Below are positions 5,648 to 34,031 of a DNA stretch of 64,000 nt, piece by piece (position 1 is the first letter of the stretch; each line of letters starts with the position of its first letter). The position numbers and the translations under genes are program-made. Origin of the DNA: Chryseobacterium glaciei. Its GTDB lineage: Bacteria; Bacteroidota; Bacteroidia; Flavobacteriales; Weeksellaceae. The notes under the pieces were generated by a model. That model made no database searches, was not told the origin of the DNA, and saw nothing but the letters and a program-made list of their open reading frames with translations. The stretch spans positions 3,109,001-3,173,000 of the forward strand of contig NZ_CP015199.1 in assembly GCF_001648155.1 (NCBI RefSeq), read 5' to 3'.

Positions 5648-6779
5648 TTGAAAGAAGAAAAAATCTGGCTTTCACCTCCGCATATGGGAGGAAGCGAGTT
5701 GAAATATATACAGGAAGCATTTGATACCAACTGGGTTTCACAATATGGTTACAACATTGATGAGTTTGAAAAAAGTCTTGAAAATTATCTTGGAAACAAC
5801 TCATTTGTTACCGCCCTGTCTTCCGGGACTGCAGCTATTCATTTAGCGCTAAGTCTATTAAATGTAGAAGAAGGCGATTTTGTGATCTGTCAATCCTTTA
5901 CTTTTGTAGCTTCTGCCAATCCTATTTTGTATTTAAAAGCTATTCCTGTTTTTGTTGACAGCGAAAGCTCAACTTGGAATATATGTCCCAACGCATTGGA
6001 AGATGCTGTTAAATATTGCATGAATCAGGGCAAAAAACCAAAAGCAATTATTACAGTTTCTTTATACGGAATGCCTTTTATGGTTGATGAAATTCTTGAA
6101 ATTTCCAGAAAATATGAAATTCCTATTATTGAAGACAGCGCCGAAGCTTTAGGAAGTAAATATAAAGGACAGCCTTGCGGAACCTTCGGAGATTTATCAA
6201 TAATAAGTTTTAACGGAAATAAAATTATCACAACTTCAGGAGGTGGAATTTTGATCTCGAGAAATCAAACAGATAAAAATAAAGCACTTTTTTTGGCTAC
6301 GCAGGCAAAAGACAATGAAGATTATTACAGCCATTCCGAAGTTGGATATAACTATAGAATGAGTAATATTTCTGCTGGAATAGGCAAGGGGACAAATGGA
6401 AGTGCTAGAAAATAGAATAGAAGAAAGGCGCGAAAACCATGATTTTTATCAAGAAATTCTTAAAGATATTGATGGAATAAATCTGTTTTCAGCTCCGAAT
6501 GAAGATTTTTATTCTAACTATTGGTTAAACACAATTGTGATAGATAAAAATATTTTATCAAAAGAAAATATTAGAGAAATTTTTTCACAAAATAATATAG
6601 AAACCAGATATTTATGGAATCCGATGCATTTACAATCGCTTTATAGAAAATATAAATTCTTTGGAAATAATTTTTCTGGTATAATTTTTGCGAGTGGTTT
6701 GTGCTTGCTGTCAGGAACTAACCTTACTGATAATTGCAAAAACAGGATTACTGAAGCTTTAAAAAAAATTAAACACTAA
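5648..6779 (+). pseudogene. DegT/DnrJ/EryC1 aminotransferase (PglE type), frameshifted
   Basis: The gene begins with TTG (KEEKIWLSPPHMGGSELKY) and reads as a PLP-dependent sugar aminotransferase to about 6390. It then continues in another reading frame to 6779. The internal PLP-lysine segment SFNGNKIITTSGGG is present. Comparison with the intact paralogue at 37494 shows one extra G in the run at 6388-6391 (GGGG where GGG is expected, before CAAATGGA). Without it, the product would be 376 residues, exactly the length of the paralogue. Such enzymes put an amino group at C4 of UDP-4-keto-6-deoxy-GlcNAc, made by the dehydratase encoded next at 6900. It may be a true inactivated copy or a homopolymer sequencing error. 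Confidence 0.85.
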
Positions 6780-9690: not shown

Positions 9691-12087
9691 ATGGACAACC
9701 AATCTTCACAAGTTTCAGAAGTGCAAAATAACTCAAACAATATTGATATTAATGAAATTATAAAACCATACCTAAGAAAATGGCCTTGGTTTATTTTTGG
9801 TGGAATATTGGCTTTGGTCATAGGTTATATGGCATTAAGATTCATGACTACTGTGTACAGTGTGCAAACAACAGTTCTTATCAAGGATGCAAAAAATTCG
9901 GCTTCGCCTGTTGGTAATGATTTGGGAGTTTTGCCCGATTTAACTGGCTTCGGAGGTTTAAAAACAAACAGTATTTCAAATGAAATAGAGATTTTTAAAT
10001 CAAAGAAATTAATGAGAGAAGTTATCATTAATCAAAACCTTCAAACTAATATTATCGCTAAAGGGAGAATATCAACAGTCGAATTATACAAAGAATCTTC
10101 TCCAATAGAAGTTAGGGTAATTAACGAGAAGCCCAATAGCAGTTCCAATAATATTTTAAAATTGGAAATTGATGGAGATAAGCTTAAATTAAGTGCGGAC
10201 AAATCTGGTAAAGAAATAGTTACGACTTATGGTAAAACAATAGGGCTACCATTTGCTAATATCATTATTACTAAAAATCCTAAATTTAATACACTAAATG
10301 CAAAGGGTATAAATACTAAAAACCTGGAATTGCATATATCCTCGTTGGACTCTAAGGTTAATAGTTTACAAGGTATTTTTAACGTAGCTCAAATAAATAA
10401 AGATGCTACGGTACTTAAACTAAGTATGAATTATCCGCAAATCTCTAAAGCTCAAGATGTACTTAATACTTTAGTTGTTGCTTATAATAATGATGCTATT
10501 CTAGATAAAAATTCAGAATCAAAGAAAACGTTGGATTTTATTGAAGACAGAATTAAAAAACTTTCAATAGAGTTGGGGCAGGTTGAAGATCAAAAAGAGA
10601 ATTTTAAATCGAAGAATAATCTTACAGACCTTGAAACCGAAGCGAAAATAAACTTGGAAAGTTCCGCTTCTGCAAGAGCTAAACAATTGGAAATTGATGC
10701 GCAGTTAGAATTAACTAATGCTTTAATTGGTTTTGTTTCTAGACAAGGGCAATATCAAACTCTACCATCAAATGTTGGTTTAAATAGTCCAGATGCTATT
10801 TCAGGAATTTCGGCTTATAATCAACTGATATTACAAAGAAATAGATTATTAGAATCTGCAACTAGCGAAAACCCTATTGTTATCGATGTAACAAAGCAAA
10901 TTAATACAATGCGCTCATCGATTGAGCAAAGTCTACAAAGAAATAGAACGGGACTTGAATTGGCTAGAAATGAATATTTAGGTGAGCAAAATAAGGTTTC
11001 TAATAAAATATCTAAACTTCCATCAATCGAAAAGCTTTTTAGAGGTATTGAAAGACAGCAGCAAATAAAAGAGAATTTATATCTTTTATTACTTCAAAAA
11101 AGAGAAGAGACTGCTATTTCATTATCAATTACAGCACCTAAAGCCAGAGTGATTGATACAGCCTATGCTTCTACAGTTCCTGTAGCACCTAAAAGGAATG
11201 TAGTTTTACTTGCAGCTTTATTTTTAGGTTTGTTAATACCTTTCATAATAATTTATTTAAAAGGTTTGTTGAATGATAAAATTATTACCAAGCATGATTT
11301 AGAAAAATTAGTTAAAGCACCAGTTATTGCAGAATTACCAAGTCTTGAAAAAGGAGATTCTGAAATTGTTCAAATGAATGATATCACGCCGATGGCTGAA
11401 GCATTTAGAATTCTTATTACAAATATGAATTTTATGCTTCCTAAAGATAAAAAAGGTGAAGGAAAAGTTGTTTTTGTAACTTCTACAGTAAAAGGAGAGG
11501 GTAAGACATTTGCATCAGTGAATTTAGCTTTAACATTAGCTAATCCTAAAAAGAAAGCAATTATTATCGGTTCTGATATCAGAAACCCACAATTGCAAAG
11601 ATATAACCCTGCAAGAAAAGGATTGATAGGGCTTACGGAATATCTTTATTCAGATCAAACCAAATTAGAAGAAATTATTCATGTTTCATCATTTAATCCT
11701 CACTTGGATGTAATCTATTCAGGTATGATTCCTCCAAACCCGACAGAGCTATTGTCAAATGGAAGATATGAAATACTTCTAGCTGAATTAAAGTCAAAAT
11801 ATGATTACATTATTTTAGATACAGCACCATTGCTTCTTGTGACAGATACTTTCTTAATTGCAGAATTAGCAGATGTTACCATCTATGTTTCAAGATCTAA
11901 ATACACAGAAAAGGCTTTGATGGAATTCGCAAATAATAATATTAGTCAAAATAAAATCAAAAACGTTGGGTTTGTCTTAAATGATGTCAGCAGAGAAAAT
12001 TTAGGATACAGCAACAAATATGGTTACGGATACAATAACCATAAAGAACAAACATGGTTTGAAAAAATCAAAAATAAACTTAGCTAA
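9691..12087 (+). CDS. wzc: Polysaccharide co-polymerase / tyrosine autokinase (Wzc-like)
   Basis: This 798-residue inner-membrane protein has two transmembrane helices (about residues 31-52 and 504-526) around a periplasmic Wzz domain with coiled-coil stretches (about 280-490). A cytoplasmic BY-kinase domain follows. It shows the Walker A segment [10 protein letters not shown] (about 597-606), the A' segment [12 protein letters not shown] and the Walker B segment YIILDTAP (about 705). The tail is tyrosine-rich ([11 protein letters not shown]), the usual autophosphorylation cluster. The protein sets chain length and controls export through cycles of phosphorylation. Its stop codon overlaps the start of the next gene by one base. 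Confidence 0.93.
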
Positions 12088-13382
12088 TGATGAAAACATA
12101 TAAAATAGCTGTTATAGGGCAAGGTTATGTAGGCTTACCTTTGTCTTTAGAATTTGCTGGACATTATCCAGTTTTAGGATTTGATATTAATGCACAAAGA
12201 GTTGATCAACTTAATGAAGGTTTAGATATAACACTTGAAGCAGATATAGAGAAACTTAATAACGGCTTAAAAAAATACAAAGAATCTAATAACGGTATTG
12301 GATATAAAGCGACAAGCCAGTTATCAGATATCGCTCAGTCAAATATATTTATCGTTACTGTTCCCACACCTATCGATAAATATAATGCTCCGGATCTTAA
12401 TCCATTAATTTCTGCTTCAAAAATGCTAGGAGAAATTATTAAAAAAGGGGACATTGTTATCTATGAATCTACAGTTTTTCCTGGCTGTACAGAAGAAGAA
12501 TGTGTTCCTGTTTTGGAGAAGCATTCGGGATTAAAGTTCAACGAAGACTTTTTCGTAGGATACTCACCAGAAAGAATTAATCCGGGAGATAAAGTAAATA
12601 CTTTAACGAGTGTTAAAAAAGTTACTTCAGGATCTACAGAAGATATTGCAGAAGAAGTGGATAATCTTTATAAAAAAATTATCACTGCAGGAACTCATAA
12701 AGCACCAAGTATCAAAGTAGCAGAAGCCTCTAAAGCAATAGAGAATGCTCAGCGTGATGTTAATATTTCTTTTGTAAATGAATTGGCACTAATTTTTGAT
12801 AGAGTTGGTATTGATACCAATGATGTTTTGGAAGCAGCAGGAACAAAATATAATTTCCTTAAATATAAACCAGGTTTAGTAGGTGGCCACTGTATATCTG
12901 TTGATCCTTATTATTTGGCTCATAAAGCGGAGCAGCTTGGTTATCATCCGGATGTTATCTTATCTGGACGTAGAGTAAATGATTCTATTGCAAAGTTTGT
13001 TGCTTCTAAAGTAGTGAAACTACTTATTGCTAAAGGTGGAGTTATTAAAGATTCTCAGGCTTTGATTTTAGGAGTAACTTTTAAAGAAAACTGCCCGGAT
13101 GTAAGAAATACTAAAGTCGTAGATATTTACAAAGAACTTAAAGATTATGGAGTTAATGTAGATATTTATGATCCATGGGCAAGTAAAGAAGAAGTGAAGC
13201 ACGAATACGGAATTGATATTCTTGATGCTCTTATCGTAGGTAAAAAATATGAATCTATTATCATTGCAGTTTCTCACAGCGAATTTCTTGAAATGGATTT
13301 AAACCTATTGAAGAAAGAAAATGCAGTAGTTTTTGATACTAAAGCTTGTTTAGACAGAAACTTAGTAGACGCAAGATTATAA
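12087..13382 (+). CDS. wbpA: UDP-N-acetylhexosamine 6-dehydrogenase (WbpA/TviB type)
   Basis: This 431-residue enzyme has the N-terminal NAD motif GQGYVGLPLSLEFAG and the catalytic cysteine segment GGHCISVDPYYLAHKAEQLG. It oxidises C6 of UDP-GlcNAc or UDP-GalNAc to the uronic acid with two NAD+. Sequence alone does not settle GlcNAc (WbpA) or GalNAc (TviB/WbpO) specificity. The neighbouring WbpE, WbpD and WbpB homologues favour UDP-GlcNAcA as the first intermediate of the 2,3-diacetamido uronic acid route. The start overlaps the wzc stop (TAATG). Confidence 0.88.
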   Translation: MMKTYKIAVIGQGYVGLPLSLEFAGHYPVLGFDINAQRVDQLNEGLDITLEADIEKLNNGLKKYKESNNGIGYKATSQLSDIAQSNIFIVTVPTPIDKYNAPDLNPLISASKMLGEIIKKGDIVIYESTVFPGCTEEECVPVLEKHSGLKFNEDFFVGYSPERINPGDKVNTLTSVKKVTSGSTEDIAEEVDNLYKKIITAGTHKAPSIKVAEASKAIENAQRDVNISFVNELALIFDRVGIDTNDVLEAAGTKYNFLKYKPGLVGGHCISVDPYYLAHKAEQLGYHPDVILSGRRVNDSIAKFVASKVVKLLIAKGGVIKDSQALILGVTFKENCPDVRNTKVVDIYKELKDYGVNVDIYDPWASKEEVKHEYGIDILDALIVGKKYESIIIAVSHSEFLEMDLNLLKKENAVVFDTKACLDRNLVDARL

Positions 13383-13391
13383 TAAGATACA

Positions 13392-14582
13392 ATGAATTAT
13401 GACATCGTAATCATCGGCGCGGGCTTGGTAGGATTGGCAACTGCTTATCAAACAAAGCTTAAAAACCCGGATTCTAAGATTTTAATTTTAGAAAAAGAAA
13501 AAGATGTATCCTTACATCAATCCGGCCACAATAGCGGGGTGATTCATAGTGGAATATATTATAAACCGGGAAGCTTAAAGGCTAAGAACTGCATCGAAGG
13601 CTATAATTCTGTAATAAACTTTGCTAAAGAATACGGAATTAAATACGATCTGTGCGGTAAAATAATTGTTGCAACTTCTCAGGAAGAGCTGTCGCTTTTA
13701 GATAATATTTATAAAAGGGGAATTGATAACGGTCTTGATAATCTACAATACCTTTCAAGAGAAGAATTCCGTGAAATAGAACCTCATTGCGAGGGAGTAA
13801 AAGCCATCAAAGTTCCTCAAACAGGTATTATAGATTATCCGGGAGTTGCAAAAAAGATAAAAGAATTATTTGAAGAGCTTGGAGGAGAGGTTAAATTTAA
13901 TAATGAAGTAAAAGACATTATTAATAAAGGTTCAGAAATTATTATTAAAACTAATAATTCTGAATTTAAAACAAAAAAAATGGTCTCTTGTGCCGGTCTG
14001 TATTCAGATAAAATTACAAAAATGACCAATGAGAAGAATGATGTTATCATTATTCCGTTCAGAGGAGAATATTATAAAATAAAAGACGAAAAAAAACACC
14101 TTGTAAAGCATCTTATTTATCCTGTTCCGGATCCTAATTTTCCATTTTTGGGAGTTCATTTTACGAGAATGGTTGATGGGAATATTGAAGCAGGACCTAA
14201 TGCTGTTTTAGCTTTTAAAAAAGAGGGTTACCAGTTTTTTGACTTTAATTTTAGCGAGACTATGCAGACGCTTACTTGGCCAGGTTTTAGAAAAATTGTT
14301 GCTAAGTACGGAAAAACAGGAATGGGAGAAGTACATCGTTCTCTTTCTAAATCCGTATTTACCAAAGCTTTGCAAAAACTAATGCCGGAAATACAGGAAA
14401 ATGATCTTGTACCTGGAGGTTCAGGAGTTAGGGCACAGGCTTGTGACAGAAATGGCGCCTTAATTGATGACTTTGATATTGTTAAAAACGGAAACATTAT
14501 TCATGTCAGAAACGCACCTTCGCCTGCCGCAACTTCATGTCTTTCTATAGGAAATAAAATTAGTGAGCTTATAGGAAATTAA
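13392..14582 (+). CDS. lhgO: L-2-hydroxyglutarate oxidase
   Basis: This 396-residue FAD-dependent oxidase of the LhgO/DAO family has the FAD motif IIIGAGLVGLATAYQ and the characteristic HQSGHNSGVIHSGIYYKPGS. The C-terminus has GGSGVRAQACDRNG. It oxidises L-2-hydroxyglutarate to 2-oxoglutarate, passing electrons to oxygen or the quinone pool. It sits 9 bases after wbpA and 44 before wbpE. WbpB-type enzymes reoxidise their NADH with 2-oxoglutarate and release 2-hydroxyglutarate, so this gene probably recycles that by-product. The metabolic link is inferred from the families and gene order. Confidence 0.9.
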   Translation: MNYDIVIIGAGLVGLATAYQTKLKNPDSKILILEKEKDVSLHQSGHNSGVIHSGIYYKPGSLKAKNCIEGYNSVINFAKEYGIKYDLCGKIIVATSQEELSLLDNIYKRGIDNGLDNLQYLSREEFREIEPHCEGVKAIKVPQTGIIDYPGVAKKIKELFEELGGEVKFNNEVKDIINKGSEIIIKTNNSEFKTKKMVSCAGLYSDKITKMTNEKNDVIIIPFRGEYYKIKDEKKHLVKHLIYPVPDPNFPFLGVHFTRMVDGNIEAGPNAVLAFKKEGYQFFDFNFSETMQTLTWPGFRKIVAKYGKTGMGEVHRSLSKSVFTKALQKLMPEIQENDLVPGGSGVRAQACDRNGALIDDFDIVKNGNIIHVRNAPSPAATSCLSIGNKISELIGN

Positions 14583-14626
14583 TTTTTTCTCTAAAGCTTT
14601 CGCAATACCAAAACATAAATTATTAT

Positions 14627-15751
14627 ATGAAAATTCAAATGGTTGACCTAAAAGGTCAATATGAAAAAATTAAAAACGAAGTAGATGCTGGCATTCAGAA
14701 TTGTATAGATAATACAGCATTTATTAATGGTCCTGCGGTAAAAGAATTTCAGCAGGATTTTGAAAATTACTTAAATGTAAAGCATGTTATTCCTTGTGCT
14801 AATGGTACAGACGCATTGCAGATCGCAATGATGGCATTAGAATTAAAACCTGGGGATGAAATAATCTGCCCTGCTTTTACATACGTTGCAACTGCCGAAG
14901 TTATGGGACTTTTAGGATTAAAACCTATAATGGTAGATGTAGATGAAAATACTTTTGAGATTGAACTTAACGGTTTAGAAAAATATATAACTCCAAATAC
15001 GAAAGCCATCGTTCCTGTTCATTTATACGGACAAAGTGCTGATATGGAGAAAATTCTTGAATTTGCAAAAAAGCATAACTTATTTGTAATCGAGGATAAT
15101 GCACAGGCAATCGGTTCTGATTATACGTTCTCTGACGGAACTATTAGAAAATCCGGAACCATAGGTCATATTGGATGTACTTCTTTCTTCCCTTCAAAAA
15201 ACTTAGGTTGTTATGGAGATGGGGGAGCTTTAATGACCAATGATGATGATTTAGCATTAAAAATAAGAATGATCGCAAACCACGGTCAACAAAAAAAATA
15301 TTATCACAAAGTTTTGGGTTGTAACTCAAGATTGGATACAATTCAGGCTGCAGTTCTTAAAGTGAAGTTGCAACATCTTGATGAATATTCGGCGGCAAGA
15401 AATAAAATGGCAGATTATTATGATGAAAATTTAGCCAAAATTTCTGATATTCAGATTCCTGAAAGAGCAAAAAACTCTACTCATGTCTTCCATCAATATA
15501 CTTTAAAGGTAAAAAATGGAAAAAGAGATGAGCTACAAAAATATCTTGGTGAAAAAAATATCCCAAGTATGATTTATTATCCGCTTCCGTTATATAAGCA
15601 GGAGGCTTTTCAGCAATATGTGGAGGAAGGTTTCAGTCTTCCTGTTACAGAAAAACTTTGTTCAGAAGTTATTTCACTTCCGATTCATACAGAATTTGAT
15701 CAGGAGGTATTGGATTTTATTATTTCTGAAATTAAGAATTTTTTTAATTAA
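14627..15751 (+). CDS. wbpE: UDP-3-oxo-sugar uronate aminotransferase (WbpE-like)
   Basis: This 374-residue DegT/DnrJ/EryC1 aminotransferase has CANGTDALQIAMMAL, the aspartate segment IEDNAQAIGSDY, and the PLP-lysine segment SFFPSKNLGCYGDGG. In the WbpE family it transfers an amino group from glutamate to C3 of UDP-2-acetamido-3-oxo-glucuronic acid. Its deamination product, 2-oxoglutarate, is what WbpB needs to reoxidise NADH. The assignment over other C3 aminotransferases rests on the adjacent wbpA, wbpD and wbpB homologues. The start is 44 bases after lhgO. Confidence 0.88.
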   Translation: MKIQMVDLKGQYEKIKNEVDAGIQNCIDNTAFINGPAVKEFQQDFENYLNVKHVIPCANGTDALQIAMMALELKPGDEIICPAFTYVATAEVMGLLGLKPIMVDVDENTFEIELNGLEKYITPNTKAIVPVHLYGQSADMEKILEFAKKHNLFVIEDNAQAIGSDYTFSDGTIRKSGTIGHIGCTSFFPSKNLGCYGDGGALMTNDDDLALKIRMIANHGQQKKYYHKVLGCNSRLDTIQAAVLKVKLQHLDEYSAARNKMADYYDENLAKISDIQIPERAKNSTHVFHQYTLKVKNGKRDELQKYLGEKNIPSMIYYPLPLYKQEAFQQYVEEGFSLPVTEKLCSEVISLPIHTEFDQEVLDFIISEIKNFFN

Positions 15752-15765
15752 TAATCAATAAAAAT

Positions 15766-16338
15766 ATGTCAGATTTTTTTGCACACGAAACAGCTATTAT
15801 AGATGAAGGCTGCGAAATAGGAGCCGGAACTAAAATTTGGCACTTTTCACATATTATGCCTAATTGTATTTTGGGAGAAAAATGTAATATCGGGCAGAAT
15901 GTAGTAGTTTCACCTAAAGTTATTTTAGGAAAGAATGTAAAGGTTCAGAACAATGTTTCTATATATGAAGGTGTTACTTGTGATGATGATGTTTTTTTAG
16001 GGCCTTCAATGGTTTTTACTAATGTTATTAATCCTAGAAGTGCTGTAAACAGAAAAAATGAATATTTAAAAACACATGTTGGAGTAGGCGCGTCAATTGG
16101 AGCTAATGCAACAATTGTTTGTGGTCACAACATTGGTAAATACGCCTTTATTGGGGCTGGTGCAGTTGTAACAAAAGAGGTTCTGGATTATGCTTTGGTA
16201 GTCGGAAATCCGGCAAAACAAATGGGCTGGATGAGCGAATTTGGTCAGCGTCTTCATTTTAATGATGAAGGTATTGCAGTATGTGAAGAAAGTGGAGAAG
16301 AATATAAAATTGAAAATAATAAAGTTTCAAAAAATTAA
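15766..16338 (+). CDS. wbpD: UDP-3-amino-sugar uronate N-acetyltransferase (WbpD-like)
   Basis: This 190-residue left-handed beta-helix acetyltransferase carries many hexapeptide repeats from residue 10 to 150 (IGAGTKIWHFSHIMPN, IGQNVVVSP, VGASIGANATIVCGHNIG). The N-terminal pattern AIIDEGCEIGAGTKIWHF is typical of WbpD/WlbB. These acetylate the C3 amine of UDP-GlcNAc(3NH2)A with acetyl-CoA to give UDP-2,3-diacetamido-2,3-dideoxyglucuronic acid. It lies 14 bases after wbpE and 9 before wbpB, so the three steps are encoded together. Confidence 0.9.
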   Translation: MSDFFAHETAIIDEGCEIGAGTKIWHFSHIMPNCILGEKCNIGQNVVVSPKVILGKNVKVQNNVSIYEGVTCDDDVFLGPSMVFTNVINPRSAVNRKNEYLKTHVGVGASIGANATIVCGHNIGKYAFIGAGAVVTKEVLDYALVVGNPAKQMGWMSEFGQRLHFNDEGIAVCEESGEEYKIENNKVSKN

Positions 16339-16347
16339 AAAATACAA

Positions 16348-17379
16348 ATGTCTGATAAAATAAAATTTGCAGTTATCGGTTGTGGCCATATTGGGAAAAG
16401 ACATGCAGAAATGGTGTCTAGGAATTCCGAATGTGAATTGGTAGCTTTAGTTGATGTAAAAGATAAATCTGTTTTAGGAATCGAAAGTTATGATGTTCCT
16501 TTTTTCGCCTCATTAGATGATTTTTTGAAATCTGGGATTGAAGTGGATGTTATCAATATCGCTTCGCCAAACGGATTTCACTTCGAGCAGGCATATAAAG
16601 CTATCGACGCAGGAAAACATGTTGTTGTAGAAAAACCAATGGCTTTGAATAAGCAGGATGCTGAGAAACTTATTTTTCAGGCACTTCACAAACATAAGCA
16701 GGTTTTTGCAGTAATGCAAAATCGTTATTCTCCACCTTCTGCATGGATAAAAGAAATGGTAGAAAGTGGAAGATTAGGAGATATATACATGGTTCAGCTT
16801 AATTGCTATTGGAACCGTGACGACAGATATTATAAGCCGGAATCATGGCATGGAAAAAAAGATCTTGATGGTGGAACATTGTTTACACAGTTTTCTCACT
16901 TTATAGATATTATGTACTGGTTATTTGGAGATCTTACCAATATTCAGGCAAAATTTGCAGACTTTAATCACAAAAACCTTACAGATTTTGAAGATTCGGG
17001 TTTTGTGAGTTTTGATTTTGTAAACGGAGGAATGGGTTCTTTAAATTACTCAACTTCTGTTTGGAATCAAAACCTAGAAAGTTCGATGACTATTATTGCC
17101 GAAAATGGAGCAGTGAAAATCGGAGGACAGTATATGGATAAAGTAGAAGCATGTAATGTAAAAGATTATGTGATGCCTGAATTGGCACCTACAAATCCGG
17201 GTAATGATTATGGTGCATACAAAGGTTCTGCTGCAAATCATCACTACATTATTGAAAACGTAGTAGATGTATTGAAAGGTAGAAATACCATCACTACAAA
17301 TGCATTAGAAGGTTTGAAAGTAGTAGATATTATTGAAAAAATCTATGCTCTGAAAAAAAATGAAAGTTATGAATTTTAA
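16348..17379 (+). CDS. wbpB: UDP-N-acetylglucosaminuronate 3-dehydrogenase (WbpB/WlbA-like)
   Basis: This 343-residue Gfo/Idh/MocA oxidoreductase has the Rossmann motif VIGCGHIGKRHAEM, the conserved VVVEKPMAL lysine segment, and the active-site histidine segment FTQFSHFIDIMYWLFGD. It oxidises C3 of UDP-GlcNAcA to the 3-keto sugar with tightly held NAD+. The NADH is reoxidised by 2-oxoglutarate, giving 2-hydroxyglutarate, which fits with lhgO three genes upstream. The deacetylase start overlaps its 3' end by about 20 bases. Confidence 0.88.
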   Translation: MSDKIKFAVIGCGHIGKRHAEMVSRNSECELVALVDVKDKSVLGIESYDVPFFASLDDFLKSGIEVDVINIASPNGFHFEQAYKAIDAGKHVVVEKPMALNKQDAEKLIFQALHKHKQVFAVMQNRYSPPSAWIKEMVESGRLGDIYMVQLNCYWNRDDRYYKPESWHGKKDLDGGTLFTQFSHFIDIMYWLFGDLTNIQAKFADFNHKNLTDFEDSGFVSFDFVNGGMGSLNYSTSVWNQNLESSMTIIAENGAVKIGGQYMDKVEACNVKDYVMPELAPTNPGNDYGAYKGSAANHHYIIENVVDVLKGRNTITTNALEGLKVVDIIEKIYALKKNESYEF

Positions 17380-18004
17380 AAAAGTTTTAGTTCTTGCACC
17401 ACATACTGATGATGGAGAATTAGGAGCGGGAGGTTTTATTTCAAAATTAGTAGAAGAAGGTGCTGAAGTATTTTATATGGCATTTTCTACTGCTGAAGAG
17501 TCTGTTCCTGAGGGATTTCCAAAAGATGTTTTAAAGACAGAGGTAAAAGCTGCTACGAAAGTATTAGGTATAAAAGAAGAAAATGTTATTATTTTTAACT
17601 ATCAAGTAAGAAAGCTTAACTACGCAAGACAGGAAATATTAGAAGAATTAATTAGGTTTAAAAGACAGGAATCGGATATTGACCTTGTTTTGATACCTAG
17701 TATTAATGATATTCATCAGGATCATTCTACAATTGCAAACGAAGGAATAAGAGCTTTTAAAACTAAGTCTATATTTAGTTATGAGCTTATTTGGAACAAT
17801 TTATCATTTAATACTCAAAGTTATGTATCTCTTGATCAAAGGCACATTGATAAAAAAATAAATGCCTTAAAGGAGTATAAATCTCAAGGTTTTAGAGATT
17901 ATTTAAGTGCTGATTTTATTAGATCCTTAGCTGTTGCCAGAGGGGTGCAGTTTGGTGTTCAGTATGCAGAAACATTTGAAGTTGTTAGGTTTTCAATAAA
18001 ATAA
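17360..18004 (+). CDS. PIG-L/LmbE-family sugar N-deacetylase
   Basis: This 214-residue protein shows the zinc-binding motif [13 protein letters not shown] near the N-terminus and the later histidine segment [12 protein letters not shown], both typical of PIG-L/LmbE deacetylases. Family members remove N-acetyl from GlcNAc-containing substrates. The start may be 17360 or the second ATG at 17369 ([12 protein letters not shown]); both overlap wbpB. The next gene, 5 bases on, is an LpxD-like acyltransferase. The two may together replace an acetyl group with another acyl group on the repeat-unit sugar. Confidence 0.85.
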
Positions 18005-24756: not shown

Positions 24757-25902
24757 ATGGAAATAAATAAAAATCTTCAAATCTGCACTAAGACAATAAT
24801 GGATACCACAGATCCTAATATTGTGTTCAATGAAAAAGGAGAAAGTGATTATTATACAAATTATATAGAGCAAATTTTACCAAATTGGCATACCGACGAA
24901 AGAGGGCAAAAGGAGCTGGAACAAGTAGCAGAAAAGATCAGAAAAGATGGTAAAAACAGAGATTTTGACTGTATCATAGGATTAAGCGGAGGGCTGGATA
25001 GCTCGTATGCAGCTCATGTAGCAAAAGAAGTAATGGGTCTGCGTCCTTTAATCTTCCATGTTGATGCAGGTTGGAATACAGATAGAGCAGTAGGAAATAT
25101 TGAAAAACTAGTTAATGGACTTAATTTAGACCTTTATACTGAAGTTATTAATTGGGAAGAAATGAAAGATCTACAGGTTGCATTTCTAAAAGCACAGGTT
25201 GCAGATCAAGATATGCCACAGGATATTGCATTTTTTTCAGGTCTCTATAAATTTGCCAAAAAAAATAAAATAAAATATGTACTAACAGGTGGAAATTACT
25301 CTACAGAATGCTGTAGAGAACCTGAGGAGTGGGGAGCATATCCGGGGATAGATAAAACATTAATTTTAGATATTCATAAAAAATTTGGAAAAAAAGAGCT
25401 TAAAACTTTTCCAATAGTGGATATTATGAGCTATAAACTCTATTACAAATATGTTTTAGGTATGGAAGTTTATAAACCATTAAACTGTTTACCATATAAT
25501 AAAAAAGATGTTGAAAAGATGCTATTTGATAAATACGGATGGGAAAGCTTTCAACATAAGCATCATGAATCAAGATTTACAAGATTCTATGAAGATTATT
25601 GGATGCCAAGAAAATTTGGATATCAAAAAAGAAAAGCACATTTTTCCAGCTTGATTTTAACAGGACAGATGACAAGAGAAGAGGCATTAGACCGAGTTTC
25701 AAGACCTGAGCTTTCTGAAGAGTTTCTACTAAAAGAATTTGAATATGTAGCAAATAAATTAGATCTTACTACAGATGAACTTCAAAAATTATTTGAAGGA
25801 GAAAACAAAACATATCACGATTATAAAAATAAAAGATCCCTTATTGGTCTTGGAGCACAGACAATGAGGAAACTTGGACTTGAAAAAAGATTATTCAGAT
25901 GA
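24757..25902 (+). CDS. wbpG: N-acetyl sugar amidotransferase (WbpG/PseA/LfnA family)
   Basis: This 381-residue PP-loop ATPase has SGGLDSSYAAHVAKE as the pyrophosphate loop and the family segments GGNYSTECCREPEEWG and YWMPRKFGYQKRKAHFSS. Family members use ammonia and ATP to turn an acetamido group into an acetamidino group, or act on related amino sugars. Members usually begin with two CxxC pairs in a zinc finger; here only C10 of the first pair is kept (ICTKTIMDTTDPN) and the second is absent. hisH overlaps its end by 4 bases and hisF follows, giving the usual three-gene amidation unit of P. aeruginosa O5. Confidence 0.88.
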   Translation: MEINKNLQICTKTIMDTTDPNIVFNEKGESDYYTNYIEQILPNWHTDERGQKELEQVAEKIRKDGKNRDFDCIIGLSGGLDSSYAAHVAKEVMGLRPLIFHVDAGWNTDRAVGNIEKLVNGLNLDLYTEVINWEEMKDLQVAFLKAQVADQDMPQDIAFFSGLYKFAKKNKIKYVLTGGNYSTECCREPEEWGAYPGIDKTLILDIHKKFGKKELKTFPIVDIMSYKLYYKYVLGMEVYKPLNCLPYNKKDVEKMLFDKYGWESFQHKHHESRFTRFYEDYWMPRKFGYQKRKAHFSSLILTGQMTREEALDRVSRPELSEEFLLKEFEYVANKLDLTTDELQKLFEGENKTYHDYKNKRSLIGLGAQTMRKLGLEKRLFR

Positions 25903-26513
25903 TAACAATTATTGATTATGGAGTAGGAAATATCAATGCTTTTGTTAATGTTTATAAAAGAGTAGATATTCCCGTAAAAATTGCTAAGACAAAGGAAGAT
26001 TTAGAGGGTGCACAAAAAATAATTCTTCCGGGTGTTGGTCATTTTGACCATGCGATGACTCAATTGAATAATTCGGGGATGAGAGATAAACTTGATCAAT
26101 TAGTACTTGATGAAAATGTACCGGTCATCGGAATCTGTGTAGGAATGCAAATGATGGCAAACAGCAGTGATGAAGGAAAGGTTGAAGGGTTGAAGTGGAT
26201 TGACGCTACTGTAAAAAAGATTGATGAAACAAAGATTAATCAGGTAACTAGGCTTCCACATATGGGATGGAACGATGTAAAGCCTGTAAAAGATATAGAA
26301 TTATTTAAAGGATTAGAAAATAATTCTATTTTCTATTTTCTTCATACCTACTACTTTCATTGTAATAATAATGAAGATATTATGGCCATAACAGATTATG
26401 GTGGAGAGTTTGCATCTGCGGCACATCATAAAAATAGATATGGGATACAATTCCATCCTGAAAAAAGTCACCATTATGGTGAAATTTTGTTACATAATTT
26501 TGCAAAACTTTAA
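25899..26513 (+). CDS. hisH: HisH-type glutamine amidotransferase subunit
   Basis: This 204-residue class I glutaminase has the nucleophile segment GICVGMQMM and the His-Glu pair in QFHPEKSHHYG, so the catalytic triad is complete. It releases ammonia from glutamine. No other histidine genes are present, and it overlaps the sugar amidotransferase gene by 4 bases (ATGA). It most likely feeds ammonia through the HisF homologue to the sugar amidotransferase, as HisH2/HisF2 do with WbpG, rather than working in histidine synthesis. Confidence 0.88.
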   Translation: MITIIDYGVGNINAFVNVYKRVDIPVKIAKTKEDLEGAQKIILPGVGHFDHAMTQLNNSGMRDKLDQLVLDENVPVIGICVGMQMMANSSDEGKVEGLKWIDATVKKIDETKINQVTRLPHMGWNDVKPVKDIELFKGLENNSIFYFLHTYYFHCNNNEDIMAITDYGGEFASAAHHKNRYGIQFHPEKSHHYGEILLHNFAKL

Positions 26514-26519
26514 AAGAAA

Positions 26520-27284
26520 ATGTTAAGGCCTAGAATTATACCAAGTCTTCTAATCCAGGATAGTGGACTTGTAAAGACTGTAAACTTTAAGAATCCAAAA
26601 TACGTTGGAGATCCTATAAATGCCGTAAGAATATTTAATGAAAAAGAAGTAGATGAACTTGCAATTTTTGATATTGATGCCACGGCAAAAGGATTGGAGC
26701 CAAATTATAGCTTAATTGAAAGAATTGCCAATCAATCAAGAATGCCCCTTTGCTATGGAGGAGGTGTGAAAACCGTTGAACAAGCTCAAAGAATTTTTGG
26801 TCTTGGGATCGAAAAAATTGCACTTTCATCAGCAGTTCTTCAAAATCCACAATTAATTACACAAATTGCAGAAAGAGTAGGATCACAAAGTGTAATAGTG
26901 GTATTAGATGTAAAGAAAAAGCTTTTCGGAGGCTATGAGGTTTATACCCATAACGGAAAAAAGGCAACAGGAATTAATCCTGTTAAATTTGTTGAAGATG
27001 CACAAAAGTTGGGTGCTGGAGAAATTATTATAAACTCTATAGACCAGGATGGAGTGATGAAGGGGTATGATATGGCGTTAATAGAGAAAATTAGAGAGAA
27101 AATTTCCTTACCACTTACTGTTTTGGGAGGAGCCGGTTCTCTAGATCACGTTAAACAAGTAATAGATAAACACGGAATAATAGGAGTTGCTGCAGGAAGT
27201 TTATTCGTGTTTAAAGGGGTGTACAAAGCTGTTTTAATAAGTTACCCTACTTTTGAAGAAAAAGAAATATTAATACAAAAATAA
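26520..27284 (+). CDS. hisF: HisF-like ammonia-channel subunit for sugar amidation
   Basis: This 254-residue TIM barrel of the HisF family aligns at the start as MLRPRIIPSLLIQDSG. Position 11, the aspartate needed for imidazole glycerol phosphate synthesis, is leucine here. The second catalytic aspartate region (VVLDVKKKLFGGYEV) is kept. Loss of the first aspartate argues that it does not make imidazole glycerol phosphate and serves as an ammonia channel and docking partner for HisH. The barrel patterns GGGVKTVEQAQRIF and NSIDQDGVMKGYD are intact. Confidence 0.88.
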   Translation: MLRPRIIPSLLIQDSGLVKTVNFKNPKYVGDPINAVRIFNEKEVDELAIFDIDATAKGLEPNYSLIERIANQSRMPLCYGGGVKTVEQAQRIFGLGIEKIALSSAVLQNPQLITQIAERVGSQSVIVVLDVKKKLFGGYEVYTHNGKKATGINPVKFVEDAQKLGAGEIIINSIDQDGVMKGYDMALIEKIREKISLPLTVLGGAGSLDHVKQVIDKHGIIGVAAGSLFVFKGVYKAVLISYPTFEEKEILIQK

Positions 27285-29108: not shown

Positions 29109-30143
29109 ATGCAGATTAAAGATAAAACACTACTTATAACAGGAGGAACAGGTTCATTTGGAACAGCTGTTTTAAGAAAGTTTATAAATACAGAACATTT
29201 TAAAGAGATTCGTATTTTTTCTCGTGACGAGAAGAAGCAGGATGATATGAGAAATCAGTTTAAAAGTGATAAACTGAAATTTTATATTGGAGATGTAAGA
29301 GATTATAATAGTGTAGAACCAGCAATGAGAGGAGTAGATTATGTCTTTCATGCTGCTGCTTTAAAACAAGTTCCATCTTGTGAATTTTTCCCTATGCAGG
29401 CTGTGAAAACTAATGTTGAAGGCACACAAAATGTCATCGATGCAGCTGGAAGAAATAAGGTGAAAAAAGTAATATGCTTAAGTACAGATAAAGCTGCATA
29501 TCCTATCAATGCAATGGGAATTTCCAAGGCAATGATGGAAAAAGTAGCTGTTGCCGCTTCAAGAAATCTGGAGGAAACAGTAGTTTGTCTTACCAGATAT
29601 GGTAACGTAATGGCTTCCAGAGGTTCTGTGATCCCATTATTTATTAAACAGATTAAAGCTGGTGGCGAAATTACGATCACAGATCCTAATATGACTCGTT
29701 TTTTAATGTCATTAGAAGAAGCTGTAGATTTAGTATTATTTGCATTTGAACACGGAAATCCTGGTGATCTATTTGTTAATAAAGCTCCTGCAGGTACAAT
29801 TGGAGACTTAGCTCAGGCATTGAAAGAAATGTTTAAAGCCGATAATCCGATAAAAGTTATTGGGACAAGACATGGTGAAAAACTATATGAGACGTTATGT
29901 ACTCGTGAAGAGATGTTAAAGGCAGAAGATATGGGAGATTTTTATAGAATTCCTGCTGATAACAGAGATTTAAACTATGCTCAATATTTTTCTGAAGGTA
30001 TACAAGATATTTCAAAAATTGAAGATTATCACTCTCATAATACACAGCAACAAGATGTGGAAGGGATGAAAGACTTATTATTAAAACTTCCATTAATAAG
30101 AAAGGAAATTTTAGGTGAAGATGTAATGCAATATCCCGACTAA
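29109..30143 (+). CDS. capE: UDP-GlcNAc 4,6-dehydratase/5-epimerase of L-FucNAc synthesis
   Basis: This 344-residue SDR enzyme has the NAD motif ITGGTGSFGTAVL and LSTDKAAYPINAMGISK, with Met instead of Tyr as in CapE/FnlA/WbjB. It forms UDP-2-acetamido-2,6-dideoxy-L-arabino-hexos-4-ulose from UDP-GlcNAc, the first step to UDP-N-acetyl-L-fucosamine. capF at 30579 and capG at 32895 supply the next steps. It is shorter than the membrane dehydratase at 6900 and has no transmembrane part. It starts 9 bases after the asparagine-synthase-like gene. Confidence 0.92.
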   Translation: MQIKDKTLLITGGTGSFGTAVLRKFINTEHFKEIRIFSRDEKKQDDMRNQFKSDKLKFYIGDVRDYNSVEPAMRGVDYVFHAAALKQVPSCEFFPMQAVKTNVEGTQNVIDAAGRNKVKKVICLSTDKAAYPINAMGISKAMMEKVAVAASRNLEETVVCLTRYGNVMASRGSVIPLFIKQIKAGGEITITDPNMTRFLMSLEEAVDLVLFAFEHGNPGDLFVNKAPAGTIGDLAQALKEMFKADNPIKVIGTRHGEKLYETLCTREEMLKAEDMGDFYRIPADNRDLNYAQYFSEGIQDISKIEDYHSHNTQQQDVEGMKDLLLKLPLIRKEILGEDVMQYPD

Positions 30144-30153
30144 AAATATTTTT

Positions 30154-30579
30154 ATGGAAATGCCCAAAATTATTGAAGGAGGAAAATATTCTGATGAAAG
30201 GGGAAGTCTTCTTTTTAATAATGATTTCAATCTATCAGAAATTAGAAGAATGTACTGTATTGAAAATGCAGATGTAGATTTTGTTAGAGGTTGGACAGGG
30301 CACCAAATAGAGCAACGCTGGTTTTCGGCATTGCAAGGAAGTTTTACAATTAAACTTATAAAAATAGACAATTGGGAAAACCCATCAAACAATTCTGAAA
30401 TCTTGGATTTTGAACTTTCTTCTGAAAATTTAGATGTCTTACATGTTCCTAAAGGATTCGTAAGTGCAATTCAGTCTAAAGAAAAGGGGGCAAGACTATT
30501 AGTTATGGCAGATTATTTTTTGGGAGAGATAAACGATGATTTTCGCTTTCCTATAGATTATTTTGAAAATTTAAAATAA
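30154..30579 (+). CDS. WxcM/FdtA-like cupin, possible sugar isomerase
   Basis: This 141-residue single cupin domain has segments DERGSLLFNN, FVRGWTGHQIEQRWFSALQGSFTI and LHVPKGFVSAIQS, as in the WxcM/FdtA group of nucleotide-sugar 3,4-ketoisomerases and related epimerases. It is placed between capE and capF, 10 bases after the first and overlapping the start of the second. It might act on the 4-keto intermediate of the L-FucNAc route, or be a helper to CapF, whose own cupin does the C3 epimerisation. The exact reaction cannot be read from sequence. A second ATG at 30160 is possible. Confidence 0.75.
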   Translation: MEMPKIIEGGKYSDERGSLLFNNDFNLSEIRRMYCIENADVDFVRGWTGHQIEQRWFSALQGSFTIKLIKIDNWENPSNNSEILDFELSSENLDVLHVPKGFVSAIQSKEKGARLLVMADYFLGEINDDFRFPIDYFENLK

Positions 30580-31697
30580 TGAAGAAAATTGGAATTACCG
30601 GACAAAACGGATTTGTCGGGTCACATTTATACAATACTTTAGGTTTAAGACCTGAAGATTTTGAAAGAGTAGATTTTGAGAGATCTTTTTTTGATGATTC
30701 AGCAAAATTGGATGAATTTGTAAAGAAATGTGATGTAATTGTACATCTTGCAGCAATGAACCGTCATCCAGATCCTGAAGTTATTTTCAATAATAATATT
30801 AAGCTGGTTAAAAAACTGGTTGCTTCTCTGGAGAAAAAAAATTCTAAAGCTCACGTTCTTTTTTCATCTTCTTCACAGGAAGAAAAAGATAATCTATACG
30901 GAAAATCTAAAAAAGAAGGGCGCGAAATTTTTGCAGACTGGGCAAAAAAATCTGGCGGAAAGTTCACAGGAATGATTATTCCAAATGTTTTCGGACCGTT
31001 CGGAAAGCCTAATTATAATTCATTCGTTGCTACATTTTGCCATAAACTTACACATGGAGAAACTCCGGTGATCGATAATGATGGTGAAGTGAAACTTATT
31101 TATGTAGGAGAGCTGGTTCAGGAAATTATTAATCAAATAGAAACTGCTGAAACAAAAGATATTTATGAAGTTTCTTATACTTCGGTGAATAAAGTTTCTG
31201 AAGTTCTCAATAAATTAGAAAACTATAAAAAATTGTATTTCGATAATGGTGAAATTCCAGAATTGAATACAAAATTTGATCTTAATCTTTTCAATACTTT
31301 TCGTTGTTATTTTGAGATTAAAGACCACTATCCTGTAAAATTTACACAACACACAGATCCTAGAGGAGCTTTTGTTGAAGTCATAAGATTGGGAATTGGA
31401 GGACAATGCTCTTTCTCGACAACGGTTCCCGGAATTACGAGAGGAAACCATTTTCATACAAGAAAAATAGAAAGATTTGCTGTAATTAAAGGAAAAGCTT
31501 TGATACAATTAAGAAAAATAGATTCAGACGAAGTATTAGACTTTTATTTGGATGGCAATGAGCCTGCGTATGTAGATATGCCAATTTGGTATACTCACAA
31601 CATTAAAAATATCGGAGAGGAAGAATTGTACACAATTTTCTGGATTAATGAGCCTTTTAATCCCGAAGACTCGGATACTTATTTTGTAGAAGTATAA
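30579..31697 (+). CDS. capF: Bifunctional CapF, UDP-L-FucNAc pathway epimerase/reductase
   Basis: This 372-residue protein has an N-terminal SDR domain (GITGQNGFVGSHLYN; NLYGKSKKEGREI holds the YxxxK pair) and a C-terminal cupin domain (TDPRGAFVEVIR, TRGNHFHTRKIERFAVIKG). In CapF the cupin epimerises C3 of the 4-keto sugar and the SDR domain reduces C4 with NADPH to UDP-L-TalNAc-type product. Length and domain order match the family. The start overlaps the preceding stop (TAATG). Confidence 0.93.
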   Translation: MKKIGITGQNGFVGSHLYNTLGLRPEDFERVDFERSFFDDSAKLDEFVKKCDVIVHLAAMNRHPDPEVIFNNNIKLVKKLVASLEKKNSKAHVLFSSSSQEEKDNLYGKSKKEGREIFADWAKKSGGKFTGMIIPNVFGPFGKPNYNSFVATFCHKLTHGETPVIDNDGEVKLIYVGELVQEIINQIETAETKDIYEVSYTSVNKVSEVLNKLENYKKLYFDNGEIPELNTKFDLNLFNTFRCYFEIKDHYPVKFTQHTDPRGAFVEVIRLGIGGQCSFSTTVPGITRGNHFHTRKIERFAVIKGKALIQLRKIDSDEVLDFYLDGNEPAYVDMPIWYTHNIKNIGEEELYTIFWINEPFNPEDSDTYFVEV

Positions 31698-31702
31698 TTT
31701 TG

Positions 31703-32947
31703 ATGGAAAGAATAAATCGTTTAAAATCCTCAATTGTTAATAAAAAGGAAACTTATTTCCTTTTTATTACTTTGTTTGGTTATATTCTTGCCTACATAGA
31801 TCCTTTTGAATTAGAAGTATTGCCTCATTTTACTAACCTTTTATTAAGAGGAGGGATATTCATTTCTTCAATATATTTTATAGCTAAAAATTTTGAAATT
31901 GTAAAAGAAAGGAAATACGTCATTATATATTTTCTTTTATTCTATATATTTTATATAATCAAGGTAATTTATAGTTTTCAAAATTTTTACTTTATTCCAA
32001 AAACTTTTCAAGGGTTTAAAGAATCCTTTTACTACTTTGGTTTAATTGTAATTCCTTTACCTGTACTGGCACTTTTGAGCTTAAATTATCAAAAGGTTGA
32101 TTTTAAAAAATTCTATAGAATAGTTTTCTATTTTTTCTTAATTATTTTAGGAATTAATTTGCTCTTTATAGGAAAGCCGAATGGTAACAGAAGTGGTATA
32201 TTCAGGTCATATTATATTTTAACTGGGCATTATGGATTAAGTTTAGTGTTTATCAGCTTGTTTAGTTATTTATTTCTGAATAAAAATAAGAAAATATATT
32301 TATTAGGAATTGTATTGGGATGTGTACCTATGTTTGTATCTGCAGCAAGAAGTCCTGTTTTAACCTTTTTTCTAATTCTTTTGGTGTTTTTTATATTAAT
32401 AAATAAAAGAAAGTATTGGTTTTATTTGTCTATTGGAGTAATTTTATCAATATTTTCACTTTTTGTGATTTATATAAATGGACTAGGAGATGATATTGTT
32501 TTTTTCAAAAGAATAAATGCTGCAATTTTTCAACAAAATGGTTCCGGAAGATCATATTATTTAAATAAAGGTATTGATATATTCATTAATAATCCTTGGT
32601 TCGGAGGGAGAGTACTTTTTGAAGATGGGACGTATCCTCACAATTTATTTGTGGATGTTCTTATGTCAACAGGGGTGTTAGGTATGATTCTATTTATTAT
32701 TTATTTTAAATTTGTAATACAGAATTTTATAAAGATTTTAAAAAATATTTACAAGTATAAAGAAAGGGGGATTTTAGCTTTTTTTTTCTTTCAATATTTT
32801 ATTTTAATTCAGACATCAGGAAATATATACTCATCATTTGAGTTTTGGTATTTTGGTGCTGCAATAATTGGTTTAGGATATATAAATTTAACAAATGAAG
32901 AAATTAAAAGTAGTAACAGTTGTGGGAACACGACCGGAAATTATTAG
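31703..32947 (+). CDS. Second O-antigen polymerase/ligase-family membrane protein
   Basis: This 414-residue protein has about eleven membrane segments, an arginine in the SAARSPVLTFFLILLVFF loop, and the family pattern GTYPHNLFVDVLMSTGVLG. It is related in layout to the protein at 20209 but clearly diverged. One of the two is likely the Wzy polymerase and the other a ligase or a polymerase for a second repeat. A TTG at 31700 directly precedes the ATG at 31703, and the ATG is preferred. Its last 53 bases overlap the capG coding region, an unusually long overlap. Confidence 0.8.
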   Translation: MERINRLKSSIVNKKETYFLFITLFGYILAYIDPFELEVLPHFTNLLLRGGIFISSIYFIAKNFEIVKERKYVIIYFLLFYIFYIIKVIYSFQNFYFIPKTFQGFKESFYYFGLIVIPLPVLALLSLNYQKVDFKKFYRIVFYFFLIILGINLLFIGKPNGNRSGIFRSYYILTGHYGLSLVFISLFSYLFLNKNKKIYLLGIVLGCVPMFVSAARSPVLTFFLILLVFFILINKRKYWFYLSIGVILSIFSLFVIYINGLGDDIVFFKRINAAIFQQNGSGRSYYLNKGIDIFINNPWFGGRVLFEDGTYPHNLFVDVLMSTGVLGMILFIIYFKFVIQNFIKILKNIYKYKERGILAFFFFQYFILIQTSGNIYSSFEFWYFGAAIIGLGYINLTNEEIKSSNSCGNTTGNY

Positions 32948-34031
32948 ATTATCAAGGGTATTATCAGCTTTAGATGCCTCTGAAGCTGTTGAACATATTA
33001 TCGTCCATACGGGACAAAACTATGATTACGAACTTAATCAGATCTTTTTTGAGGATTTAGGTTTACGTAAACCTGATTACTTTTTGGAAGCTGCAGGAAA
33101 AACGGCAACAGAAACGGTAGGAAATATTTTAATTAAAATAGATCCGCTTCTTGAAGAGCTGAAACCTGATGCTTTTTTGGTTTTAGGTGATACAAATTCT
33201 TGTCTTTGTGCAATTCCAGCTAAGAAAAGGCAAATTCCTATTTTCCATATGGAAGCAGGAAACAGATGTTTTGATCAAAGAGTTCCTGAAGAAACAAACC
33301 GTAAAATTGTAGATCATACCTCAGATGTTAATTTAACATATTCTGATATTGCCCGTGAATATCTATTGCGAGAAGGGCTTCCTGCAGACAGAATTATTAA
33401 AACAGGATCTCCTATGTTTGAGGTTTTAAATCATTATTTATCTCAAATTGAGAGTTCTGATGTTTTAAGCAGATTGAACTTGGAAGAAGGAAAATATTTT
33501 GTAGTTTCTTCACATAGAGAAGAAAATATTAATTCTGAAAAGAATTTTAATGGTTTAATGGAAAGCCTTAATGCTATTGCTGAAAAATTTGGATATCCTA
33601 TTATTGTTTCTACTCACCCTAGAACAAGAAATATGATTGATAAGAAACAGATAGAAATGAGACCGGAAATTCAGTTTTTAAAACCACTTGGTTTCCATGA
33701 TTATAACGCTCTTCAGATGAGAAGTTATGCTGTTTTATCTGATTCGGGAACAATTTCTGAAGAATCATCTGTTTTAAATTTCAGAGCGCTTAATATCAGA
33801 GATGCTCATGAAAGACCGGAAGCAATGGAAGAAGCATCTGTAATGATGGTAGGAATGTCACCGGAAAGAATTTTACAGGGATTGGTACAACTTCAACAAC
33901 AAAAAGTAGGTAAAGAAAGAAATTACAGATCTGTAGCAGATTATTCGATGCCTAATGTTTCTGAAAAAGTAGTAAGAATCATTTTAAGTTATACAGATTA
34001 TATTAATAGAGTAGTTTGGAGTAAGATATAA
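32895..34031 (+). CDS. capG: UDP-sugar 2-epimerase completing UDP-L-FucNAc (CapG/FnlC)
   Basis: This 378-residue non-hydrolysing 2-epimerase of the WecB group has VGTRPEIIRLSRV, HTGQNYDYELNQIFF, GDTNSCLCAIPAKK, FHMEAGNRCFDQRVPEE and SDSGTISEESS. These are close to CapG of Staphylococcus aureus, which converts UDP-L-TalNAc-type intermediate to UDP-L-FucNAc. The ATG at 32895 matches the family N-terminus (MKKLKVVTVVGTRPE), so the 53-base overlap with the preceding gene is probably real. WbpI-type epimerases of the ManNAc3NAcA route are relatives, and a second role there cannot be excluded. Confidence 0.9.
   Translation: MKKLKVVTVVGTRPEIIRLSRVLSALDASEAVEHIIVHTGQNYDYELNQIFFEDLGLRKPDYFLEAAGKTATETVGNILIKIDPLLEELKPDAFLVLGDTNSCLCAIPAKKRQIPIFHMEAGNRCFDQRVPEETNRKIVDHTSDVNLTYSDIAREYLLREGLPADRIIKTGSPMFEVLNHYLSQIESSDVLSRLNLEEGKYFVVSSHREENINSEKNFNGLMESLNAIAEKFGYPIIVSTHPRTRNMIDKKQIEMRPEIQFLKPLGFHDYNALQMRSYAVLSDSGTISEESSVLNFRALNIRDAHERPEAMEEASVMMVGMSPERILQGLVQLQQQKVGKERNYRSVADYSMPNVSEKVVRIILSYTDYINRVVWSKI

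Follow-up and report, generated by a model that had tools for sequence, protein, structure and literature searches.

An lhgO gene in a wbp operon and the cycle that it suggests

Why does a gene for an L-2-hydroxyglutarate oxidase, lhgO, lie within an operon for the synthesis of a nucleotide sugar acid? The question is raised by a 64,000-nucleotide stretch of the 4.87 Mb genome of Chryseobacterium glaciei (contig NZ_CP015199.1, positions 3,109,001 to 3,173,000; hereafter the window), in which wbpA, lhgO, wbpE, wbpD and wbpB follow one another on the + strand (12087-17379), separated by gaps of 9, 44, 14 and 9 base pairs (bp). The original prediction, made from the letters of the window, had placed lhgO between wbpA and wbpE, with wbpD and wbpB following at short distances, and this arrangement is confirmed. 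The answer to which we give a slightly better than even chance is that the WbpB enzymes of these operons produce L-2-hydroxyglutarate (L-2-HG) from 2-oxoglutarate and that LhgO recycles it.

The first base of wbpA is shared with the end of an upstream wzc-like gene, and PIG-L-type and LpxD-like genes follow wbpB, all on the + strand, the spacing within this run ranging from -20 to 44 bp. The wbpA product (12087..13382) resembles a UDP-N-acetylglucosamine (UDP-GlcNAc) 6-dehydrogenase, scoring 392.7 bits on the NDP-sugDHase subfamily model (cut-off 189.8) with matches to PF03721, PF00984 and PF03720, and falls below the cut-off of the TviB equivalog model (519.6 against 592 bits). LhgO (13392..14582) reaches 541.5 bits with NF008726 against a cut-off of 299, shares at best 94% identity with named relatives (Chryseobacterium) and has the fly L-2-hydroxyglutarate dehydrogenase (L2HGDH; 8w75, E 3e-107) as its closest solved protein. 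The wbpE-like gene (14627..15751) codes for a DegT/DnrJ aminotransferase (PF01041, 381 bits) predicted to convert a 3-keto to a 3-amino group, during which the release of 2-oxoglutarate from glutamate is expected, while the wbpD-like gene (15766..16338) codes for a hexapeptide N-acetyltransferase (Hexapep PF00132). WbpB/WlbA (16348..17379) is a Gfo/Idh/MocA protein, a predicted UDP-N-acetylglucosaminuronic acid (UDP-GlcNAcA) 3-dehydrogenase of the Bordetella/Chromobacterium WlbA class. Among the matches listed, none of WbpE, WbpD and WbpB reaches an NCBIfam equivalog cut-off, and the wbp naming of these three draws on the whole gene set and, in the case of WbpB, also on the class match. Homologues of all four wbp genes of the UDP-GlcNAc3NAcA (Wbp/Wlb) pathway, wbpA, wbpB, wbpE and wbpD, thus occur together in the window as family-level matches.

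The five genes would lead to UDP-2,3-diacetamido-2,3-dideoxy-glucuronic acid, to which the products of downstream wbpG/hisH2/hisF2-like genes would probably add an acetamidino group. WbpB would oxidise C3 of UDP-GlcNAcA using bound NAD, and the enzyme of this operon lineage would be reset by hydride transfer to 2-oxoglutarate, which would be released as L-2-HG. LhgO would convert L-2-HG back to 2-oxoglutarate with FAD, the electrons passing on to the respiratory chain or another acceptor. The sequences themselves establish the gene identities, the layout of the operon, the recurring lhgO-wbp linkage and the conserved L-2-HG site; the use of 2-oxoglutarate by WbpB, the L form of its product and the electron acceptor are the steps that we infer. 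As a result, 2-hydroxyglutarate (2-HG) would not build up, 2-oxoglutarate would be kept available alongside WbpE and the C3 oxidation would be pulled forward. The cycle was originally described as self-contained, which it is not, since an FAD oxidase must hand its electrons to an acceptor.

The naming of the gene as an L-2-hydroxyglutarate oxidase gene is borne out by the NF008726 score and by a full set of L-2-HG-binding residues. The fly L2HGDH structure contacts 2-oxoglutarate through S88, H92, Y289, L299, H302 and R393, and the fly enzyme shows no activity on D-2-hydroxyglutarate (D-2-HG) (PMC10726252). These six residues and V90 are all matched in the window LhgO, in which S88, V90, H92, Y289, L299, H302 and R393 correspond to residues 48, 50, 52, 243, 253, 256 and 347. 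Among 161 aligned LhgO proteins no change is seen at S88, H92, Y289, H302 and R393, Ala takes the place of L299 in two and Ile that of V90 in one, and the contact residues are unchanged in 12 further LhgO of another family (f4, below). The alignment holds 161 of 162 LhgO, the fragment L029 having been dropped; L107, L109, L111, L150, L160, L249, L258 and L279 were absent from the set beforehand, as were L128 (the lhgO of genome G323) and the fragment L130. In Chryseobacterium sp. E1, lhgO occurs as two open frames (L029:10001-11184). Judged by its conserved residues, LhgO looks L-specific.

Linkage of lhgO and wbpB within and between families

The co-occurrence of lhgO and wbpB extends well beyond one strain group, contrary to the outcome that the original prediction had named as fatal to it. 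Of 236 genomes in the family of C. glaciei, 41 have an lhgO above the cut-off and 92 have a WbpB. A WbpB at least 74% identical to that of the window is encoded in 42 genomes, including all 41 with lhgO, and 40 of these 41 have both genes on one contig, no more than 6 kb apart; the Fisher tests applied to these counts ignore relatedness. The order wbpA, lhgO, wbpE with wbpB downstream is kept in all 22 Chryseobacterium/Kaistella loci from named genomes, so that the arrangement exceeds chance, and wbpD is replaced by other genes in two of them (L019 and L022). The other 50 genomes with WbpB encode a protein of at most 71% identity and no lhgO by profile search. One of these, G324 (56% complete), carries, at the end of a contig, an lhgO fragment directly behind wbpB (L130) which the profile search missed. 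The operon of G323 is split over two contigs, with wbpA-lhgO on one and wbpD-wbpB on the other (L127, L128), while in G392 WbpB is present, lhgO, wbpE and wbpD are absent as a block and wbpA adjoins wbpB (L126).

The linkage recurs, in rearranged form, in the family of genome G037 (f5; 80 genomes, 79 genera), where lhgO is found in 28 genomes and WbpB is encoded within ~11 kb of it in nine, against 0.12 expected under random placement. Six of these nine near pairs involve a WbpB of the Pseudomonas aeruginosa type (that of G037, L193, matches 3oa2 with E 1e-117) and three a WbpB of the window type. In the stretches fetched, at least one same-strand wbp gene (at least 45% identity) lies near 16 of the 28 lhgO genes; among the 12 loci lacking such a neighbour, L273, L278 and L279 sit on stretches of ~3-5 kb. 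The orders observed include lhgO-A-E-D-B, lhgO-E-A-D-B, lhgO-E-D-B-A, lhgO-D-B-A, E-A-lhgO-D-B and lhgO-E-D-B. A third family (f4) has lhgO in 12 of 147 genomes, one of which (G603) has wbpB within 1.5 kb, in the order wbpA-E-D-B-lhgO. The G603 WbpB is 86% identical to that of the window, while its LhgO, whose gene starts 2 bp later, is only 44% identical and is nearest to the LhgO of G026 and three f17 genomes (59-62% identity) rather than to that of the window. At least two LhgO lineages are therefore paired with nearly the same WbpB.

Chance or strain-specific adjacency is ruled out by these family-level counts. The strongest evidence for a functional link is that the linkage outlasts rearrangement and recurs with both WbpB classes and with at least two LhgO lineages. 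Quick tree searches (LhgO, 140 rows; WbpB, 62 rows) fail to separate several gains from few gains followed by losses. The LhgO tree omitted 22 of the 162 rows, these being near-identical rows from the window's family and including L029; the WbpB tree has no row for L272 and marks L127 (G323) as linked although its lhgO lies on a separate contig.

In some Chryseobacterium loci the replacement of wbpD suggests a different N-acyl group. The families were checked in L019, where wbpD is swapped for a fused E1-type 2-oxoacid-dehydrogenase-like protein and a NeuD-like hexapeptide acyltransferase (L019:12355-15427), and the gene clusters of this replacement are shared by L022, L245, L246 and L247.

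Mechanism, stereochemistry and competing explanations

A recycling role for LhgO has to be weighed against several contrary observations, beginning with genomic distribution. Among 296 Bacteroidota genomes, lhgO exceeds the cut-off in 115, a WlbA-type WbpB is encoded in 48 and a P. aeruginosa-type WbpB in 59, and lhgO is found in 31 of the 48 and 35 of the 59 carriers (hand tally; Fisher tests). This phylum-wide correlation of presence and absence is weaker and is confounded by lineage. Close lhgO/wbpB pairs occur in six of the 115 lhgO genomes, four of them from the window's genus together with G026, where a second lhgO copy lies beside a second wbpB, and G037; in G038 and G100 the two genes are ~20 kb apart, and most Bacteroidota lhgO genes do not adjoin wbpB. 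In f5, WbpB of either class accompanies lhgO in 26 of 28 genomes and is also encoded in 40 of the 52 genomes without lhgO, so a genome with WbpB can do without lhgO, and shared presence tells less than position does. Eleven of the 12 f4 lhgO genes have no wbpB within 1.5 kb. Six further f4 genomes (G017, G033, G126, G150, G253 and G292) encode a WlbA-type WbpB without lhgO, and in three of these (G017, G126 and G292) wbpD adjoins wbpB.

The reported enzymology points in the same direction. The window WbpB has the WlbA proteins of Bordetella pertussis and Chromobacterium violaceum (3q2k, 3q2i) as its nearest solved relatives by sequence, with 3q2k the top-ranked fold match, and a 2011 abstract is said to state that the WlbA class needs no 2-oxoglutarate. 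The P. aeruginosa/Thermus class (3oa2, 3o9z), which works by a ping-pong mechanism with 2-oxoglutarate, matches it only weakly (E 1e-11 and 1e-12) and was rejected for the window WbpB, though it does hold for the six f5 genomes, and 2-HG release has been demonstrated biochemically for one enzyme of this class; with the P. aeruginosa-type L193 protein as query, the window genome yields no match at E<=1e-40. The premise that WbpB/WlbA enzymes reoxidise bound NADH with 2-oxoglutarate thus stands for the P. aeruginosa class and, as far as reported, fails for the B. pertussis/C. violaceum class to which the window WbpB belongs. For the latter class PMC10622841 describes a sequential mechanism, and no data supporting its use of 2-oxoglutarate were found. 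The lhgO linkage suggests that the WbpB of the window lineage may depart from this sequential, 2-oxoglutarate-free mechanism.

These observations would also fit an LhgO that serves in general L-2-HG clean-up and merely travels with the polysaccharide locus, WbpB using free NAD+ and forming no 2-HG. The sequential WlbA mechanism, the placement of lhgO elsewhere in many Bacteroidota, the frequency of WbpB without lhgO and the possibility that the operon block spread as a single unit all favour such an explanation. We nevertheless regard it as unlikely, given that lhgO in the window's family is found only with this wbpB (41 of 41) and that a linkage kept across rearranged orders, both WbpB classes and at least two LhgO lineages would not be expected from hitchhiking alone.

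The recycling of L-2-HG by LhgO faces a further difficulty in the handedness of the WbpB product, the only one found reported being the D-2-HG of P. aeruginosa (PMC8651671). In P. aeruginosa PAO1, as described there, 2-HG derived from 2-oxoglutarate in the UDP-GlcNAcA 3-dehydrogenase step is recycled by another enzyme, which sustains O-antigen synthesis; loss of the D-2-hydroxyglutarate dehydrogenase (D2HGDH) leads to less O-antigen, and WbpB is inhibited by D-2-HG. This system is a precedent for the one proposed here and differs from it in its D-2-HG product, in a recycler (PA0317, a D-2-HG dehydrogenase) that also serves SerA and in the class of its WbpB, whereas in the window an L-type oxidase lies inside the operon. 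The conflict between a D-2-HG-making WbpB class and an L-type LhgO stands out most where f5 operons contain both.

In favour of L-2-HG recycling by LhgO, the window genome has no PF02913 protein by profile search, PF02913 being the family of the D-2-HG dehydrogenases; other FAD oxidases belong to it as well. Among 58 genomes picked by hand, all 34 from the window's family lack PF02913, whether they have lhgO or not (G324, 56% complete, is among them), and all 24 from outside it have PF02913, each together with a P. aeruginosa-type WbpB; G017, G126 and G292 lie outside this set. Ten of the window-family genomes tested, including G392, carry a WlbA-type gene with neither lhgO nor PF02913, which speaks against a 2-HG role, and their WlbA-type genes mostly lie outside a compact wbpA-E-D set. 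In family f23, an FAD/iron-sulphur protein with PF02913 is often encoded within five genes of lhgO (cluster k11, 17 members; the one checked, L172:4605-7502, has 966 amino acids); it and LhgO possibly form a pair for L- and D-2-HG oxidation, which would fit a 2-HG role.

LhgO might act here on D-2-HG from WbpB through relaxed or switched stereospecificity, in which case the cycle would be real and the enantiomer and the name wrong. The product of the P. aeruginosa WbpB, the proximity of lhgO to that type of WbpB (within 11 kb) in the six f5 genomes and the lack of a D2HGDH-type protein in the window genome argue for this; the inactivity of the fly enzyme on D-2-HG (PMC10726252) and the retention of its contact residues in the window protein and nearly all of the 161 LhgO argue against it, and we consider it improbable.

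Lastly, lhgO occurs in surface sugar operons that lack wbpB. Three Deinococcus plasmids (L146, L147 and L151) carry rfbF-lhgO-SDR-rfbC (SDR, short-chain dehydrogenase/reductase) followed by a Gfo/SAF-type oxidoreductase gene (DRL/SAF), and the same set is found in L114 and L237 and, shortened, in L113, where the oxidoreductase is a PF21135 DRL protein, and L115, making two phyla in all. Elsewhere lhgO lies beside SDR or aminotransferase genes without wbpB or, in many Bacteroidota, in other surroundings. A plasmid search for LhgO matched 207 records; of the five examined, three hold the rfbF operon and none has wbp genes annotated beside lhgO, while the one WbpB plasmid record examined has no lhgO. 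LhgO is thus tied to surface sugars beyond its pairing with WbpB. That the LhgO homologues of surface sugar operons are flavin sugar oxidases acting on another substrate, such as a nucleotide-sugar intermediate, is suggested by these CDP-sugar-type and SDR/aminotransferase contexts, in which no known 2-HG source was seen, and is very unlikely in view of the L-2-HG contact set kept alike in the window and CDP-operon LhgO and of a window protein scoring far above its equivalog cut-off.

Surrounding genes and biological significance

The PIG-L-type deacetylase gene (17360..18004, + strand; PF02585) overlaps wbpB by 20 bp. A WbuX/WbpG-type amidotransferase, HisH2 and AglZ/HisF2 are encoded at 24757-27284, and these acetamidino-modification genes point to a 3-acetamidino uronic acid as the probable final sugar; a sugar of this kind is carried by P. 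aeruginosa O5. The fnlA-like, fnlB/wbcJ-like and wecB-type genes at 29109-34031, with scores under the cut-offs of the fnlA and wbcJ models, likely provide a route to UDP-L-N-acetylfucosamine (UDP-L-FucNAc) in the same locus. The wecB-type epimerase (32895-34031) is a candidate for the C2 epimerase that leads to the manno form (the wbpI role), but it lies near the fnlA/fnlB-like genes and may serve FucNAc synthesis instead. A DegT aminotransferase gene at 5648-6779 is split into two overlapping reading frames, each matching part of PF01041, which is a frameshift or an assembly error.

LhgO is known by name from the glutarate catabolism of Escherichia coli and Pseudomonas putida (csiD-lhgO-gab), where L-2-HG derives from glutarate hydroxylation by CsiD (PMC8206213, PMC6265302), whereas the lhgO neighbours in the window make a nucleotide sugar acid. 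The L2HGDH of Drosophila (8w75; PMC10726252) has identical substrate-contact residues; unlike the window LhgO, the L2HGDH of higher eukaryotes is mitochondrial and without an operon partner. For P. aeruginosa, support of this sugar pathway by the recycling of D-2-HG has been described before (PMC8651671). A thin literature search returned no paper that describes a wbp operon with lhgO, and within the reach of that search the pairing of either WbpB class with an L-type oxidase encoded in the same operon is a new variant.

A broader reading, which we advance tentatively and hold to be less probable than not, is that a 2-oxoglutarate/L-2-HG hydride shuttle forms a built-in and repeatedly recruited nucleotide-sugar module. 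The WlbA-class WbpB of these operons would then be stereo-inverted relative to the P. aeruginosa enzyme and produce L-2-HG purposefully for recycling by LhgO, and the rfbF operons of Deinococcus and Bacteroidota would use the same shuttle for another sugar.

If L-2-HG is indeed made by WbpB and recycled by LhgO, some WlbA-class dehydrogenases would depend on 2-oxoglutarate after all, and the contrast between D-2-HG in Pseudomonas and L-2-HG here would raise a sharp stereochemical question. The bacterial L-2-HG oxidase would gain a role outside glutarate catabolism, and 2-HG, usually seen as a damage product, would be a normal shuttle metabolite of surface polysaccharide synthesis.

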